A stretch of 64,000 bases of DNA, from positions 1 through 64,000 of the forward strand of contig JACPUC010000009.1 of assembly GCA_016192455.1 (NCBI GenBank), read 5' to 3'. A model generated the notes under the pieces. That model ran no database searches, was not told the DNA's origin, and saw only the letters and a program-made list of their open reading frames with translations. Made by a program: the position numbers and the translations under genes. Source of the DNA: Candidatus Tectimicrobiota bacterium (GTDB taxonomy: Bacteria; JACPUC01). Below, piece after piece: positions 15,297-57,256 of this stretch. Position 1 is the stretch's first letter, and every line of letters starts with the position of its first letter.

Positions 15297-15393
15297 TGGC
15301 GGAAACGCGTGGGAGTCGAACCCACCGCGGACGTGGTTAGCGCCCGCCATTGGATTTGAAGTCCAAGAGGGACACCCGCCCCTATGCGCTTCC
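15297..15393 (-). tRNA. selC: tRNA-Sec (TCA), selenocysteine
   Basis: Read on the minus strand this is a 94-base tRNA plus an encoded CCA (15297-15299). An 8-bp acceptor stem pairs GGAAGCGC with GCGTTTCC. The anticodon loop is CTTCAAA with anticodon TCA, there is a long variable arm, and the T arm reads GGTGGGTTCGACTCCCAC. The extended acceptor, long variable arm and UGA-reading anticodon identify tRNA-Sec. The organism should therefore make selenoproteins. selA, selB and selD are not in this window, and I saw no obvious in-frame-TGA selenoprotein gene. Confidence 0.95.
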
Positions 15394-19775: not shown

Positions 19776-20146
19776 GGGGATGGACCGTCCTGCGCGGGTC
19801 TGCGAGACGTTGGCAGACGCCGCAGCCCTGCACGGTTTCACGTCGGCTGCCCCGGAAGCCGACGAGGTGCTAGGGGCGGTTCGCGAACCGCCCCTACGGT
19901 CGATGGGCTGGATGCCAGTCCCACCATCTCTGCGCTCTCAGCGTCTCCGCGGTTAAATGGATGGCGCCGCCGAGACGCAGAGGACGCGGAGGAAGGATGA
20001 ACCACGGATAGACACGGATGCACACAAATATCAGTGTCCATCGGTGTTCATCCGTGGTTCCTTGCATACCGATGGCAGGTGCGCTTCGCGAACCACCCCT
20101 ACGGTCGTCCGCCATTGCCTGCCCCGTGCCGCCTGGGGAGCGTGGC
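19776..20146. repeat. Intergenic repeat island (REP palindrome plus accacggat-type repeats)
   Basis: About 370 bases without a gene. It contains a 26-bp palindrome at 19871-19896, a cgccgagacgcagaggacgcgg unit near 19966-19990, and a long imperfect inverted pair in which gaaccacggatagacacgga (about 19998) faces tgttcatccgtggttcc (about 20045-20061). A degenerate copy of the palindrome follows at 20076-20103. Relatives of the second and third units recur at 51.4-54.4 kb and 57.26 kb. Confidence 0.75.
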
Positions 20147-51100: not shown

Positions 51101-53851
51101 TCACACCGCGTACACCTTCAATACCTCGTCGCCGTAATGGTTGATGACCTTGATGGCGATCTTGCCGGTCTCCGGGGGGTCGAAGGGGCGGCTGGTGGTG
51201 CTGTAGAGGCTGGCCCAGGCGGCCTCGTCGATCTCCGCGCGCAGGGCGCGTTTCAGCTTGTCGTACGGCTCCTCGGCGCCGGTGAAGTAGGCGTGCCGCA
51301 CGAAGAAGCTCTCCTCGTCGTAGTTGGTGTCGATGAACCAGCAGGCGATGTCGTCGGTCGAGGAGGTGCGAATCTGCCCCGTGGTCGGGTCGTAGACATC
51401 CAGGCCCTTGATCGCAACGACGAACTGATCCGCGGATTTCACAGATTCGCGCAGATTTCTCTTATCTGTGGTCATCTGCGTCATCTGTGGATGAATTCTC
51501 CGAATTTCCACGTCCGGCTCGCCGAAGACCATGAAGAGGTTGGCGGCGCCGCTCTTCTTCAGCAGCTCCTCCCCCATCATCAGGTCGGGGTTCATGCGCG
51601 TCACCAGCACCGTCAGGTCGCCGTAGCGTTTCGCCTCCTCGGAGACGTGCGGGTCGAAGGCGAAGCCGCACACCACCAGCACGTCGAATCGCACCCCCTG
51701 CAGCGCCTCCTTCGCCGCCTCGTGGATGTGCTCCGCTCCCACCGTGCCGTGCTCGGGGCCGATGGAGACGGCCACGCGCTTGCTGGCGCCGTCACTGCCG
51801 GCGTACTCCCCGGCGGCCTGCAGCCAGCGGCCGGCGAACGGCTCCAGGCGCTCGAAGCGCAGGCGCTCGGCCTTGCGGGTGTTCTGCACGCCGGCCTTCT
51901 TGAGGTTGTCCAGGATCATAACGGCGAAATCATCCACGGATTTCACAGATGAACGCCGATAATTCTTAGGGGTATCCGCAGATTGCACAGATGAACACAG
52001 ATGGGTTGAACCCTTCTTCTTCTCATCGGTGTCCTCCGTGGATAACGTTCTGTGCGGCGACAGGCTCTCGACGGTGAACGGCCCGGCGACGCGCGCCCGC
52101 GAGCTGTCTGGGTACGGCTGGTCGTAGAGGGTCTCCTGATCGGCGTGGCGGGTAATGGCGGCGTCGATCTCGGCGCGCGTCATCCCCTCGCGGATGTCGG
52201 GGTTGTTGGCGATGGATTTCAGCGTCACGTGCGGCACGCGCTTGTAGACGAACCCCTTGCGGATGTCGGGAAGGGAGCTATCCACAGAGGACACAGAAGG
52301 CACAGATTTTCGCAGATAGTTTTTGATCTCTTCATCTGTGTTCATCGGTGTAATCTGTGGATAGGCATCGGCGAGGTAATAGTAGGGATATTTAGCGGCC
52401 ATCAGGCGCGTGCGCGCCAGGGCCAGGGCCACGCGGCTGGTGTCGATGGTGATCCAGCGCCGCCCCCATTGCTCGGCGACGTAGGCCGTCGTGCCGCTGC
52501 CGCAGGTGGGGTCCAACACGAGGTCGCCGGGGTCGGTGGTCATGAGGAGGCAGCGGGAAACGACATCGGTATTTGTTTGAACTGCATAAATCTTCGCCTC
52601 TCCGAAACCGCCTGCACGCACATCATCCCAGTAATTCGATATTCTTACTACCGGATAGTCATCCGCAAACATTTTGTAACGAAGATACTTGCCAGAGACA
52701 ATAAGCCTATTTGCAGTTTCTAACTTTCGCATTCCCTCTTTAGTAGTTCGCCAGTAATATCCAGGTAACGGGCTAAACTTGTACCCTTGAAATTCGTAGA
52801 TAAAATGTGTTGTCTTTCCACCACTGTCAGAATATATACTGCTTGGCATAAATCGCTTGCCTATAAGTTGATTTGATTCGAGGTTTTCTGAACGTGTTAG
52901 CCTTCTACATGATCCATCAATTGATTCGATCATTGTGTAAGCTGCTTCTATAGTGGTTGACTTCCGAAGGATATAAAGTGAACGAACCTTAGTATGTTCT
53001 GTAGACTTAGAATACCAAATAAGGTAATCACCCGAAGAATCTATATGACCACTGCCCTTACCAGTGGTTTTAAGAAAGAAAATCAGCCCGCAGAAATTCT
53101 CACTCCCAAACACCTCATCCATCAAACACCGCACGAGGTGCACATTCTCATCCCCAATCTGCACGAAGACGCTGCCCGTCTCCGTCAGCAGCTCGCGCGC
53201 CGCCACCAGCCTATCCCGCAGGTAGGCCAGGTAGGAGTGAATCCCCAGCTTCCAGGTGTCGCGGAAGGCCCTGATCTGTTCCGGCTCGCGGCTGGCGTCC
53301 TCGGCCTTGCCGTCTTTCACGTCGCGCTTGCGGGTGCTCACCTGCCAGTTGGAGCCGAACTTGATGCCGTAGGGGGGGTCGAGGTAGATCGTCTGCACCT
53401 TCCCCTTCAGCCCCTCCTTCTCCGCCAGGCTGGTCATGACGAGGAGCGAGTCGCCGAGGATCATGCGGTTCGACCAGTTGGCGTCGTACTGGTAGAACTC
53501 CACCTTCTTGTCGAACCCGTCGATGCCGTTGAAGTCGGCGAAGAGGTCGAGCTGCTCCTGTTTCGGTTTGCCGCCGCGCCGCCGCAGGTCCTCGATGAGC
53601 GCCTGGGGGTGAATCTTCTCCTGGATGTAGACCGGCGCCACCGGCACGGCGAGGTCTTCGCGGTCCTGCTCGTCTTTCCCCTTCCAGACGAGCTGCGGGT
53701 CAAGCGACGGGTCGCGCGGGTAGAGCATGGTTCGCGGCGCCGCCTCCTCCTCGGCCACGAAGCCGCGCAGCTCCTCGGTGGGGATGTTGCGCCGCTTGTC
53801 CTTGTGGCGCAGGGACTCGACACTGGTCATCCTGGTGTTCTTTTTGGCCAT
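51101..53851 (-). CDS. Restriction-modification DNA methyltransferase (Mod-like) with in-frame repeat insertions
   Basis: This 916-residue N6-adenine methyltransferase has DPPYGIKFG at about 157-165 and the SAM motif LDPTCGSGTTAYVAEQ at about 440-455. Between them (about 52560-53070, residues 260-430) lies a strikingly A/T-rich target-recognition domain. A C-terminal region of about 400 residues carries the partner interface. Three hydrophilic segments are translated copies of an intergenic repeat: near residues 495-525, 602-640 and 785-808. The ATG at 53851 lies in one copy of a 78-bp tandem duplication; the other copy offers a start leading only to a 24-residue dead end. It pairs with the broken Res gene upstream. 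Confidence 0.9.
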   Translation of the reverse strand: MAKKNTRMTSVESLRHKDKRRNIPTEELRGFVAEEEAAPRTMLYPRDPSLDPQLVWKGKDEQDREDLAVPVAPVYIQEKIHPQALIEDLRRRGGKPKQEQLDLFADFNGIDGFDKKVEFYQYDANWSNRMILGDSLLVMTSLAEKEGLKGKVQTIYLDPPYGIKFGSNWQVSTRKRDVKDGKAEDASREPEQIRAFRDTWKLGIHSYLAYLRDRLVAARELLTETGSVFVQIGDENVHLVRCLMDEVFGSENFCGLIFFLKTTGKGSGHIDSSGDYLIWYSKSTEHTKVRSLYILRKSTTIEAAYTMIESIDGSCRRLTRSENLESNQLIGKRFMPSSIYSDSGGKTTHFIYEFQGYKFSPLPGYYWRTTKEGMRKLETANRLIVSGKYLRYKMFADDYPVVRISNYWDDVRAGGFGEAKIYAVQTNTDVVSRCLLMTTDPGDLVLDPTCGSGTTAYVAEQWGRRWITIDTSRVALALARTRLMAAKYPYYYLADAYPQITPMNTDEEIKNYLRKSVPSVSSVDSSLPDIRKGFVYKRVPHVTLKSIANNPDIREGMTRAEIDAAITRHADQETLYDQPYPDSSRARVAGPFTVESLSPHRTLSTEDTDEKKKGSTHLCSSVQSADTPKNYRRSSVKSVDDFAVMILDNLKKAGVQNTRKAERLRFERLEPFAGRWLQAAGEYAGSDGASKRVAVSIGPEHGTVGAEHIHEAAKEALQGVRFDVLVVCGFAFDPHVSEEAKRYGDLTVLVTRMNPDLMMGEELLKKSGAANLFMVFGEPDVEIRRIHPQMTQMTTDKRNLRESVKSADQFVVAIKGLDVYDPTTGQIRTSSTDDIACWFIDTNYDEESFFVRHAYFTGAEEPYDKLKRALRAEIDEAAWASLYSTTSRPFDPPETGKIAIKVINHYGDEVLKVYAV
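51428..51497. repeat. Intergenic-type repeat inside the methyltransferase gene (copy C)
   Basis: Units such as gcggatttcacagatt and gtcatctgcgtcatctgtgg face each other as an imperfect inverted pair. The minus-strand translation is in frame and adds IHPQMTQMTTDKRNLRESV to the enzyme. Confidence 0.75.
51932..52045. repeat. Intergenic-type repeat inside the methyltransferase gene (copy B)
   Basis: This is the longest copy. ccacggatttcacagatgaa and gcagattgcacagatgaaca occur on one side and ctcatcggtgtcctccgtgg on the other. It is translated in frame as a Ser/Lys/Asp-rich segment that includes STEDTDEKKKG and SSVKSVDDF. Confidence 0.8.
52276..52366. repeat. Intergenic-type repeat inside the methyltransferase gene (copy A)
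   Basis: ctatccacagaggacacaga and ttcatctgtgttcatcggtg flank a cgcagatagtttttg centre. The minus-strand reading stays open and adds MNTDEEIKNYLRKSVPSVSS. Confidence 0.8.
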
Positions 53852-53967
53852 GATTCAATCCGCCGATTGCGCCGATTTGCGCAGATTCAGGGACTCGACT
53901 TTGGTCGTCCTGGTGTTCTTTTTGGCCATGATTCAATCCGCCGATTGCGCAGATTTGCGCAGATTGG
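53812..53967. repeat. 78-bp tandem duplication covering the methyltransferase start codon
   Basis: Units 53812-53889 and 53890-53967 are near-identical, with a handful of substitutions. Each contains, on the minus strand, atggccaaaaagaacaccag followed by the repeat-derived aatctgcgcaaatcggcgca region. Only the downstream copy opens the full-length gene. Confidence 0.85.
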
Positions 53968-54361
53968 AGAATACAAAACGCCTAAATTCAAGACTCGGGC
54001 GGCCGAAGTTCAGCAGCAACCCGCGCTCCAGGCGTGTTGCCTTGAGGTAGTTCAAGAGCTGTGCTTCCTCGACGCCAGTGATGGCGTGCAGCGCCTTCAA
54101 CTCGATGATAACGCTTTCATAGCAGACAAAATCCGCCCGGTACGAGCAGGCCAGCGGCTGCTCCTTATAATACACCGGCAACTCCACTTCGCGCGCGAAC
54201 GGAATGGCTCGGACCGCGAATTCAATCGCGAGCGCCTGCTGGTAGACAGCCTCCAGGAATCCCGGGCCAAGTTCTCGATGAACCTCCATCGCCGCGCCGA
54301 TGACGGCGTGTGTTTGTTGGTCCTTTGAATCTGCGTCAATCTGCGAAATCCGCGGATTCAT
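53933..54361 (-). CDS. GxxExxY family protein
   Basis: This 142-residue protein has the name-giving motif G34-F-L-E37-A-V-Y40 within ELGPGFLEAVYQQAL. It also has YRADFVCYESVIIELKAL, a PD-(D/E)xK-like D...E-x-K arrangement, and LLNFGRPSLEFRR. GxxExxY proteins resemble small nucleases but no activity is established. Both termini (MNPRISQIDADSKDQQ and NLRKSAQSAD) read as translated copies of the dispersed repeat that also invades the methyltransferase. ATG 54361 overlaps the Res stop (ATGA). Such genes often insert into repeat arrays, so it may be a passenger. Confidence 0.85.
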   Translation of the reverse strand: MNPRISQIDADSKDQQTHAVIGAAMEVHRELGPGFLEAVYQQALAIEFAVRAIPFAREVELPVYYKEQPLACSYRADFVCYESVIIELKALHAITGVEEAQLLNYLKATRLERGLLLNFGRPSLEFRRFVFSNLRKSAQSAD

Positions 54362-57256
54362 TTTTGCTCACCGATAAAGCCGCGGATGAGAGTTTGCGCG
54401 TTCCACGGGTCGGTGATCTCGATGAACGCCCAGCGCCCGAAGCCGCCGTGGTTGTTGACCGCCGGCGCCCACAGGTTGCGCGCCGTACTCACCTTCGCCT
54501 CCTTCTCGGCCCTTCGCTCACCCGTCACCTCGATGATGAGGTTCAGCAGGTCGTCCGGCCCGCGGCCGTCGTCGACGCGGGCGATGAAATCGGGATGGTA
54601 CTGCTTCTCCTCGTTGAAGAGCGTGTAGGGGATCGTGAAGCCGAGGTTCTGGTTCTTCACGTAGGCGGCGACCTCCTCCATCTCCTCCAGGCTCTCGGCC
54701 ATCTTCTGCTCCCAGGAGCCGGTGTCGGCCACCACGTGCGACACATGGCATTTGTCGGGGCGGGTGTCGTAGGTGCTGCGCCGCGTGGTGAAATCGACGT
54801 AGCGGGTCGAGCCGAGGGTGTCGTAGGGGTGCAGGATCGGCTTCAGGCGCGGCTCGCCGCCGGAGGAGGCAACGATGGCCCGGTAGACGCGGTCGGCGGC
54901 GTCGTGCGCCCACTCGACGAGCAGGAGGAGCTGCGGGAAGGTGTTGTCATGGCAGGTGACGCATTCATCCAGCCAACGCTTGGTGATGCCGAGCACCTGC
55001 GGGAAGAGCCAGGGCTTGTCGTTGCCGTCATCGTCGCGAAAGTATTTCTCCAGCGTCAGCTTTCCCAGAAGGAAGGCGACCTCGTTCATGCGCCTGCGCT
55101 TCAGGTCGTCCAGGGTGAGGATGACGGTCTCCCCCACGATAGGGGCGTTCTCGGTCTTCGTCGGCAGGTCGTGCGTGCTCAGGGTGAGGTTCGAGTCCTC
55201 CGTGAACATGGCGCTGAGGCGCTGCGTGGGCAGATCGTAGCGGTACCCGAGCAGGCGCGGGAAGGTGATCTCGCAGGCGATGCGCTCCTCCAGGGCGCGC
55301 ACGCGGGTGGTCTGCCGCCCCGGCTGCGGTCCCTTCGTTGAGCCGGAGCAGGGGATGAAATCGAAGGGGACGCCGTAGACCTCGGCATACTCCGGCTCGA
55401 AGCAGCCGTCGTCGTTCAGGGCGTAATCCATGCGGCGCAGCGCCCGGCCCACCACCTGCTCGCAGAGGAGCTGCGTGCCGAAGGCGCGCACGCCGAGGAT
55501 GTGGGTCACGGTGTTCGCGTCCCAGCCCTCGGTGAGCATGGAGACGCTGACCACGCAGCTTCTCGGGGTCGCGCCCCGGAAAGCGCTGGCGGTACTCCGC
55601 CTTGAACTCCTCGATCTCCCTGGCGGCGATCTTCTTGAACTCGGCGCTCATGCCCTCGCCGGATTCAAGCTGCTGGCTGTCCACGAGGATGGTGTTGGGA
55701 CGGCGCAGCCAGCCGCCGCGGCCGTCGTCGTTGCGGAAGAACTTCAGGTTGCCGGCTTGCACCAACGTCGTGTCCCCGAGCGGCTTTTCCCAGCCGGCGA
55801 TGTAGTCGAACACCAACTTCGAGACGTTCGTGTTGTTGCAGACGACGATGAAGACAGGCGGGGTGAGGTTCGTAGCCGTGGCCGTCGAGCTTGCTTCCCA
55901 CAGGCGGTAGTACTGCTCATAGTTGCCGTAGAGGCTTTGCAGCGCCCCTTCCAGCTCCTTGGGAAGCTGCGGTTCGCCCACCACCGCCTCGGTCTTGCGG
56001 CCTTTGCGAGGCAGGTGTTCGCGGATCCGCGGCCAGAGGTTGCGGTAGGTGGGCTGCTCGCCAATCATGGAGTCATCCGCCACCGGCACGCGCGGCACCT
56101 TGACGATGCCTGATTCGATGGCGTCGATGAGGGAAAAGTCCGAAACCACCCAGGGAAAGAGCGTCCCCTCCTTGTAGCCGGAGCCGCGCAGGAAGAAGGG
56201 GGTGGCCGAGAGGTCGTAGATGACCTTGGCGCCGAGTTTCGCCTTCACCGCCTCAAGGCCGGAAATCCAGACGCGCGCCTCCTCGTTGCGCGTCTCCGCT
56301 TCCCTGCGTTCGTCGCTGCTCAGTTTCTCCTCATCGGTTTCGGGACGGCGCCGGTAGCAATGGTGCGCCTCATCGTTGAGAACGACGATGTTCTTTTTGC
56401 CGCCGAGCTCGCGGCAGGCGCGCCGCACCATCTGCTGAGGCGTTTCGGTGAACGCTCCATCGGCGCCCTGGGCGAGAATCGCCTTGGTGAGTTTGCCGGC
56501 GGCGACCTTCTCCCGCGGTTGGAAGGCGTGGAAGTTCGTGATGATGATCTTGGCCTGCTCCAGCCGTTCCATCTGGTGAGCCGGCAGGAGGTCCCACTGG
56601 CGGTAGTAGTTGTTGGGGTCGTTCGGCAGCAACACGCGCAGGCGGTCGCGCACGGTGATGCCGGGGGTGACGATGAGGAAGGTGTCGGAGAAGAGCTTAC
56701 CCTGGCGATCGGCCAGCTTGTTCAGCATGTGCCAGGCGATGAGCATGGCCATGACGACGGTCTTTCCGGTGCCGGTGGCCATCTTCATGGCGAGGCGCGG
56801 CAGGCCGGGGTTGGCCGCGTCGTTGGCGTCGCGCAGGTGGTTCGCAAGCCATTCGTCGCCGCACTTCGCCGCCGCCTCGGTGAGGTAGATGACCGTCTCA
56901 ACCGCCTCAATCTGGCAGAAGAAGAGCTTTGTATCGCGCTCGGGGTTGGTCCAGTACTTCAGCAGCTCGCGGGTCGTCGAGGTGATGCCGTGGTACTTCC
57001 CCCGCCGCCACAGGGCGACGCGCTCAGGGATGCGGTTGACGGTCTGGTTCTCTTCAAGACGGTCTTTCGTCCATTCGCCGTAGAGGTCGAGCTGCTTGCC
57101 GCGCTTCCTGGGCCGCGGCACCGGCACGAAGTAGGCGCTGCTGCGCCGTTCCTCGATGATCTCGTCGGTAATGCCGTCGTCGTCGAACTTGAAGTGGCGC
57201 CGCGGCTCCGCAAAGGGAGAGTTGAGGATGGGGTTTTCGATGACGACTGGAGGCAT
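54358..57256 (-). pseudogene. Res-type restriction helicase (BPTD_3080-like), disrupted by an internal deletion/frameshift
   Basis: The frame from ATG 57256 (MPPVVIENPILNSPF) carries Walker A MATGTGKT, motif II LNDEAHH and motif III DLSATPFF. It runs in correct sequence to FPGRDPEKL near 55562, after which it becomes Arg/His-rich noise. The continuation lies in another frame from VVSVSMLTEGWDANTVTHIL (55554) with motif VI EQVVGRALRR, to the stop at 54358 after VEIT..IGEQK-type sequence. From memory, homologues of about 990 residues carry roughly 24 more residues at the junction. A deletion of about 70 bases therefore shifted the frame. Restriction activity is probably lost while methylation could persist. 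Confidence 0.8.

Follow-up and report, generated by a model that had tools for sequence, protein, structure and literature searches.

How does a repeat that otherwise lies between genes come to be translated within a conserved protein? The question is raised by mod, the gene for the methyltransferase subunit of a type III restriction-modification system (51101..53851, minus strand), in a 64,000-nt stretch of the genome of Candidatus Tectimicrobiota bacterium JACPUC01 (GenBank assembly GCA_016192455.1, contig JACPUC010000009.1, positions 1 to 64,000; hereafter the window). An earlier reading of the sequence alone (the original prediction) had noticed three copies of a repeat family within this gene. 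We find that three palindromic elements are translated in frame in a conserved type III Mod protein and that they are tolerated there, in loops that are hypervariable and probably disordered.

Three palindromic elements translated within mod

The mod frame comprises 916 codons on the minus strand and is free of internal stops. Its product matches the profiles of N6_N4_Mtase (Pfam, 1.2e-27) and MTase_III (PADLOC, E = 1.3e-266), and the nearest solved folds are 6k0w and 4zcf (EcoP15I Mod). The DPPY and FxGxG-type motifs are unbroken, so that the protein carries both the Mod profile and the DPPY motif of type III Mod subunits.

As the original prediction had stated, the three copies preserve the reading frame. 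The element at loop site 1 (52280..52362, minus strand, 83 nt) retains both arms and encodes aa 497-524, the one at site 2 (51932..52043, minus strand, 112 nt; aa 603-640) is a composite of two left arms and one right arm, and the one at site 3 (51428..51492, minus strand, 65 nt) encodes aa 787-808. All three were recognized by repeat matching, are eroded in sequence and belong to the 9-nt-unit type of the family (type B, described below). The inverted pairing of their arms is still present, and their single-strand folding exceeds that of dinucleotide shuffles (z = -4.3, -2.7 and -2.7 for sites 1, 2 and 3). As each 9-nt unit spans three codons, their translations look like tripeptide repeats (PQ-M/I-TQM..., NLR...).

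A scan for Mod relatives returned 80 loci at 50-64% identity from many phyla. The alignment that had been suggested as a check on the inserts came out in their favor: the three element-coded segments are missing from all homologues readable over the region (nearly 80). Loop lengths are 38 aa here against a homologue median of 28 aa at site 1, 44 against 27 at site 2 and 28 against 9 at site 3. Since the sites exceed the median homologue by just 10, 17 and 19 residues, each element also replaced some native loop residues. The site 1 loop itself is variable: most relatives have about 28 aa there, and four have 6-8 aa. A structure model of Mod, whose fine detail we did not use given its mean predicted local distance difference test score (pLDDT) of 66, places all three inserts in loops and among the lowest-confidence segments, which agrees with the loop location that had been put forward for modeling; site 3 forms the turn of a beta-hairpin joining strands 780-786 and 809-820. 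The idea that the repeat acts as a generator of protein linkers was overstated: the loops pre-exist, in homologues they vary or have almost disappeared, and there is no sign that the added residues have a function.

With the inserts and the specificity region set aside, Mod shares 69-91% identity, segment by segment, with ten near relatives. The segments following each insert retain 69-84% identity and the one past the last insert 74-84%; coding signal is present on both flanks of each insert. The identity in these segments suggests that Mod has remained constrained around the inserts. In the specificity region (aa 251-420) identity to the near relatives is about 32%. The presumed target-recognition region (52560-53100 of the window) looks, at this low identity, as if swapped in from elsewhere, and its G+C content is 40% against 63-64% around it.

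Several long Mod loops of other lineages are also palindromic. Repeats of the CCCCCTTT..AAAGGGGG type occupy site 1 of a Chloroflexota locus (L069; multi-copy in its own genome, 145 vs 0), site 1 of an Oscillatoriales locus (L103; likewise multi-copy, 93 vs 2) and site 3 of a Nitrospinota locus (L073; 148 vs 3), while GGGCGACC..GGTCGCCC is found at site 3 of a Ca. Abyssobacteria locus (L071; 20 vs 0). In a Planctomycetaceae locus (L078), a GGCACGGGCATC repeat (19 vs 0) lies outside the three loops, near aa 686. The multi-copy signal was weak for L075 (7 vs 2) and for site 1 of L073 (3 vs 0), and the multi-copy status of the loop repeat in L102 was not confirmed (2 matches in its own genome); the repeats at site 1 of L130 and of L071 are further candidates. 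Four of the five repeats confirmed outside this genome fall inside loops that together account for 7% of the protein (binomial P = 1e-4, counting confirmed cases only, with this genome excluded and the loops picked after the data had been seen). Repeats with no relation to each other have turned into loops at shared positions, which suggests permissive sites more than any feature of a single repeat.

The repeat family and the nuclease-like gene between its arms

Across the genome, CACAGATGAACACAGAT at up to 3 mismatches yields 180 matches, compared with 4 for the reversed control, and a sister pattern yields 32 compared with 0. The family comprises two types that share the arm core CRCNGAT, with complete copies of about 60 nt. 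Type A is AACCACNGATNNACACNGATNNACACNGAT followed by its own inverse and is built of 10-nt units (82/82 spacings exactly 10); type B is ATCCGCAGATTNCGCAGATTNCGCAGATT followed by its own inverse, with mostly 9-nt units (38/45). The intergenic copy that had been offered as the same repeat as those in mod (20000..20059, plus strand; repeat match, fold z = -6.4) is of type A and hence a cousin of the mod copies, not a sibling.

The genome-wide count of coding and intergenic copies that had been called for was made on about 101 clusters, in stretches around matches that cover 164 of the 180 type A motif matches. Four of the clusters lie in a reading frame whose coding signal continues on either side: the three in mod and a single one in a glycosyltransferase gene (304279-305373 of contig C23, in a prophage-like region). 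The internal insert of that gene and its element-coded C-terminal tail are both absent from its homologues. The description of the family as otherwise intergenic is therefore right for nearly all copies and fails for this fourth copy and for arms that end the frame of a gene next to mod. Relatives of the glycosyltransferase, which holds both internal and C-terminal element-coded segments, sit in viral contigs, and type B palindromes are unusually dense in this prophage-like region (L201 and L202, contig C23 284260-304962). Stop codons were considered as the cause of the absence of type A from genes and dropped, since open frames are similar in both types.

The gene next to mod, between res and mod (53933..54361, minus strand), encodes a 142-aa GxxExxY / PDDEXK_3 nuclease-like protein (PF13366, 4.1e-41; TIGR04256, 6.4e-44). 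It conserves D77, E87, K89, Q101 and Y105 and thus combines the profile match with the PD-(D/E)xK residues of the family. The left arm of a 9-nt-type palindrome (54327..54357, minus strand; repeat match) lies at the 5' end of the frame, and the right arm (53936..53965, minus strand) is translated as the C-terminal tail, with an inverted-repeat score of 21 between the two (L217). The start codon adjoins the left type B arm, which is translated, so that the gene lies inside the palindrome. This bracketed neighbor, missed by the original prediction, is a better clue to how the repeat spreads. A 78-bp tandem duplication (53810..53965, minus strand; 74/78 identical by sequence comparison) spans the right arm and the first mod codons, so that a short spurious start precedes mod.

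Members of the repeat family flank each of this genome's three GxxExxY genes (contigs C8, C27 and C3, with types B, B and A, respectively). We then scored 100 GxxExxY loci, all from other genomes except L217 and L229, for an inverted repeat across the gene with a threshold of at least 15. Such a repeat was found at 59/100 loci, compared with 0/179 same-size control intervals shifted by 1.2 kb in the same stretches and 1/100 mismatched pairs. Among named records, the arms are clear in Bernardetia sp. Wsw4-3y2 (score 18) and weak in Treponema saccharophilum (11), and two others fall below the threshold. Arm sequences vary among genomes (CACAGAG, CGCAAAG, CACGAAG, CACGGAT, ACAGGAT and others) and have a 9/10-nt period in common (autocorrelation 0.45 and 0.35 vs 0.29 and 0.24 in the background). 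The proteins conserve a QxxxY motif in addition to the PD-(D/E)xK residues. GxxExxY genes were not found in the searched phage records and viral contigs, and are rare on plasmids; the sole viral locus (L249) was a false match and was rejected.

At many homologous restriction-modification loci the end of res and mod are no more than about 30 bp apart (e.g., L061-L063, L075, L076, L081, L096 and L127), and at others further DNA lies between the two genes. L078 and L124 were the only such loci where a GxxExxY gene was detected, and both carry arms of the same kind.

Proposed origin and spread of the palindromes

We propose, as a somewhat probable reading of these sequence comparisons, that the solo palindromes are non-autonomous derivatives of arm-GxxExxY-arm elements and are tolerated in genes when they lie in frame in loops. 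The short arm-loop-arm palindromes would derive from the longer elements; the GxxExxY nuclease would recognize a hairpin or cruciform of the arms and cut DNA, and repair would copy the arm pair elsewhere, often losing or duplicating host bases. Most copies would persist between genes, and those in frame in loops could persist because they leave the fold undisturbed. The copies in mod may have spread locally, out of the GxxExxY element that separates res from mod. The replaced codons in mod, the composite copy and the 78-bp duplication beside an arm are compatible with break repair, without proving it.

More tentatively, GxxExxY (PDDEXK_3) proteins could be the mobilizing nucleases of a large superfamily of 9/10-nt-periodic palindromes, a nuclease-based counterpart of the REP/RAYT system, whose non-autonomous copies repeatedly become protein loops. 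If true, this would supply both the function and the mode of action of a large, widespread nuclease family that has no assigned role, and would explain the origin of many palindromes that clutter environmental bacterial genomes. It would also provide a set of natural replicates (several unrelated repeats taken up by one protein family at the same loops) with which the conversion of selfish DNA into protein could be measured. The link between repeat and nuclease is open to direct testing. No paper linking GxxExxY to repeats, and none printing the arm sequences in this context, was found in a literature search conducted largely without subscription journals, and priority is thus not established.

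Several points weigh against the proposed origin from arm-GxxExxY-arm elements. The Fisher test on the inverted repeats (P = 1e-33) overstates independence, with many loci from one phylogenetic neighborhood and several genomes contributing more than one, and about 41 of the 100 loci lack a strong inverted repeat by this method. Activity of GxxExxY proteins on the arms is putative, and the structure model of the protein (pLDDT 44) was too poor to use. The relatives of this genome in the comparison set are all distant, with homologues comparable at the protein level only. Finally, the linked res is broken, which leaves the biological role of this mod uncertain.

In-frame translation of palindromes has been described before, in Rickettsia and in enterobacterial elements (PMC2229807; PMC10969869). 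The Rickettsia palindromic elements (Ogata et al. 2000, as reviewed in PMC2229807 and PMC10969869) are 105-150 bp long, Rickettsia-specific and found in many host genes. The likeness to them that had been suggested is correct in that dispersed palindromes lie between genes and are also fused in frame to conserved genes whose homologues lack the residues. It does not extend to membership of the Rickettsia family: complete copies here are about 60 nt long, short of the 105-150 bp range (those in mod have 65, 83 and 112 nt), their arms have a 9/10-nt period, nearly all of them are intergenic, and arms bracket a nuclease gene. The elements work like Rickettsia palindromic elements and are not members of that family.

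A parallel for the derivation from a longer element is offered by miniature inverted-repeat transposable elements (MITEs) with in-frame fusions (ERIC/RU-1, RU-2 and RU-3; PMC2229807), which are likewise short, non-autonomous, bounded by inverted ends and fused in frame to genes. In the general model, MITEs derive from longer elements (PMC2229807). Solo palindromes and GxxExxY elements share their arms; the mobilizing role of GxxExxY is putative. No TA ends were seen here, nor, among homologues aligned at the protein level only, a target duplication; in contrast to MITEs, the candidate parent encodes a nuclease instead of a DDE transposase.

A different enzyme, such as a RAYT-type or insertion sequence (IS) transposase, could instead move the palindromes, with GxxExxY being a passenger or a domesticated user of the arms. 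Palindromes partnered with a linked gene have a precedent in REPINs, reported to be extragenic, and their RAYT transposases (PMC3116915). As in that system, paired inverted repeats are dispersed between genes, a low-copy gene is flanked by the same repeat, and several types occur per genome, each with its own gene copy; the three GxxExxY genes against roughly a hundred solo palindrome clusters also resemble the low copy number of a domesticated gene. However, RAYT is an HUH tyrosine transposase, whereas the bracketed gene matches only PDDEXK_3 / GxxExxY and no transposase family, HUH (Y1) included, although no genome-wide search for RAYT was made. Moreover, the arms bracket GxxExxY specifically, also in unrelated genomes with different arm sequences. 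We therefore regard another mobilizing enzyme as unlikely, though worth keeping in mind.

The elements might also have piled up in mod because the protein no longer matters, mod being a decaying orphan. The adjacent res gene for the type III restriction subunit (54358..57256, minus strand) is indeed present as two overlapping frames, frameshifted by an internal out-of-frame deletion, so that an intact Res is missing from the system; at the break, homologues are about 70 bases longer, which reflects either a real deletion or an assembly error. Unless the assembly is wrong there, mod is probably an orphan in this genome on account of this deletion. Its decay, on the other hand, is improbable: the 916 codons are open with both methyltransferase motifs intact, the segments after the inserts keep their identity to near relatives, and repeats occupy these loops in intact homologues from other phyla too. 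Compared with EcoP15I-type loci, the locus has the same Mod and Res families, a DPPY-type adenine methyltransferase and res beside mod; it differs in that res precedes mod and is broken, the GxxExxY gene intervenes, and the Mod loops hold translated repeats.

That the extra residues stem from ordinary expansion of the loops, or from an assembly artefact, and only happen to resemble the repeat is barely credible, even if the three loops do vary in length among homologues, as it is contradicted by the excess of motif matches over the control (180 vs 4), by arms that keep their inverted pairing and fold beyond shuffles, and by the fourth in-frame copy in the unrelated glycosyltransferase gene.

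Further observations on the repeats and the window

The loop of a type A palindrome elsewhere in the genome (L172, contig C1 264957-265058) harbors a second repeat, GTAGGGGCGGTTCGCGAACCGCCCCTGC, which is also present near 19870-19900 of the window. Type A arms occur in long tandem arrays with a unit of about 172 bp in contig C26 (L204, 30124-30744) and of about 240 bp in contig C27 (L205, 2878-3667). A selenocysteine tRNA gene is predicted at 15297-15393 of the window.
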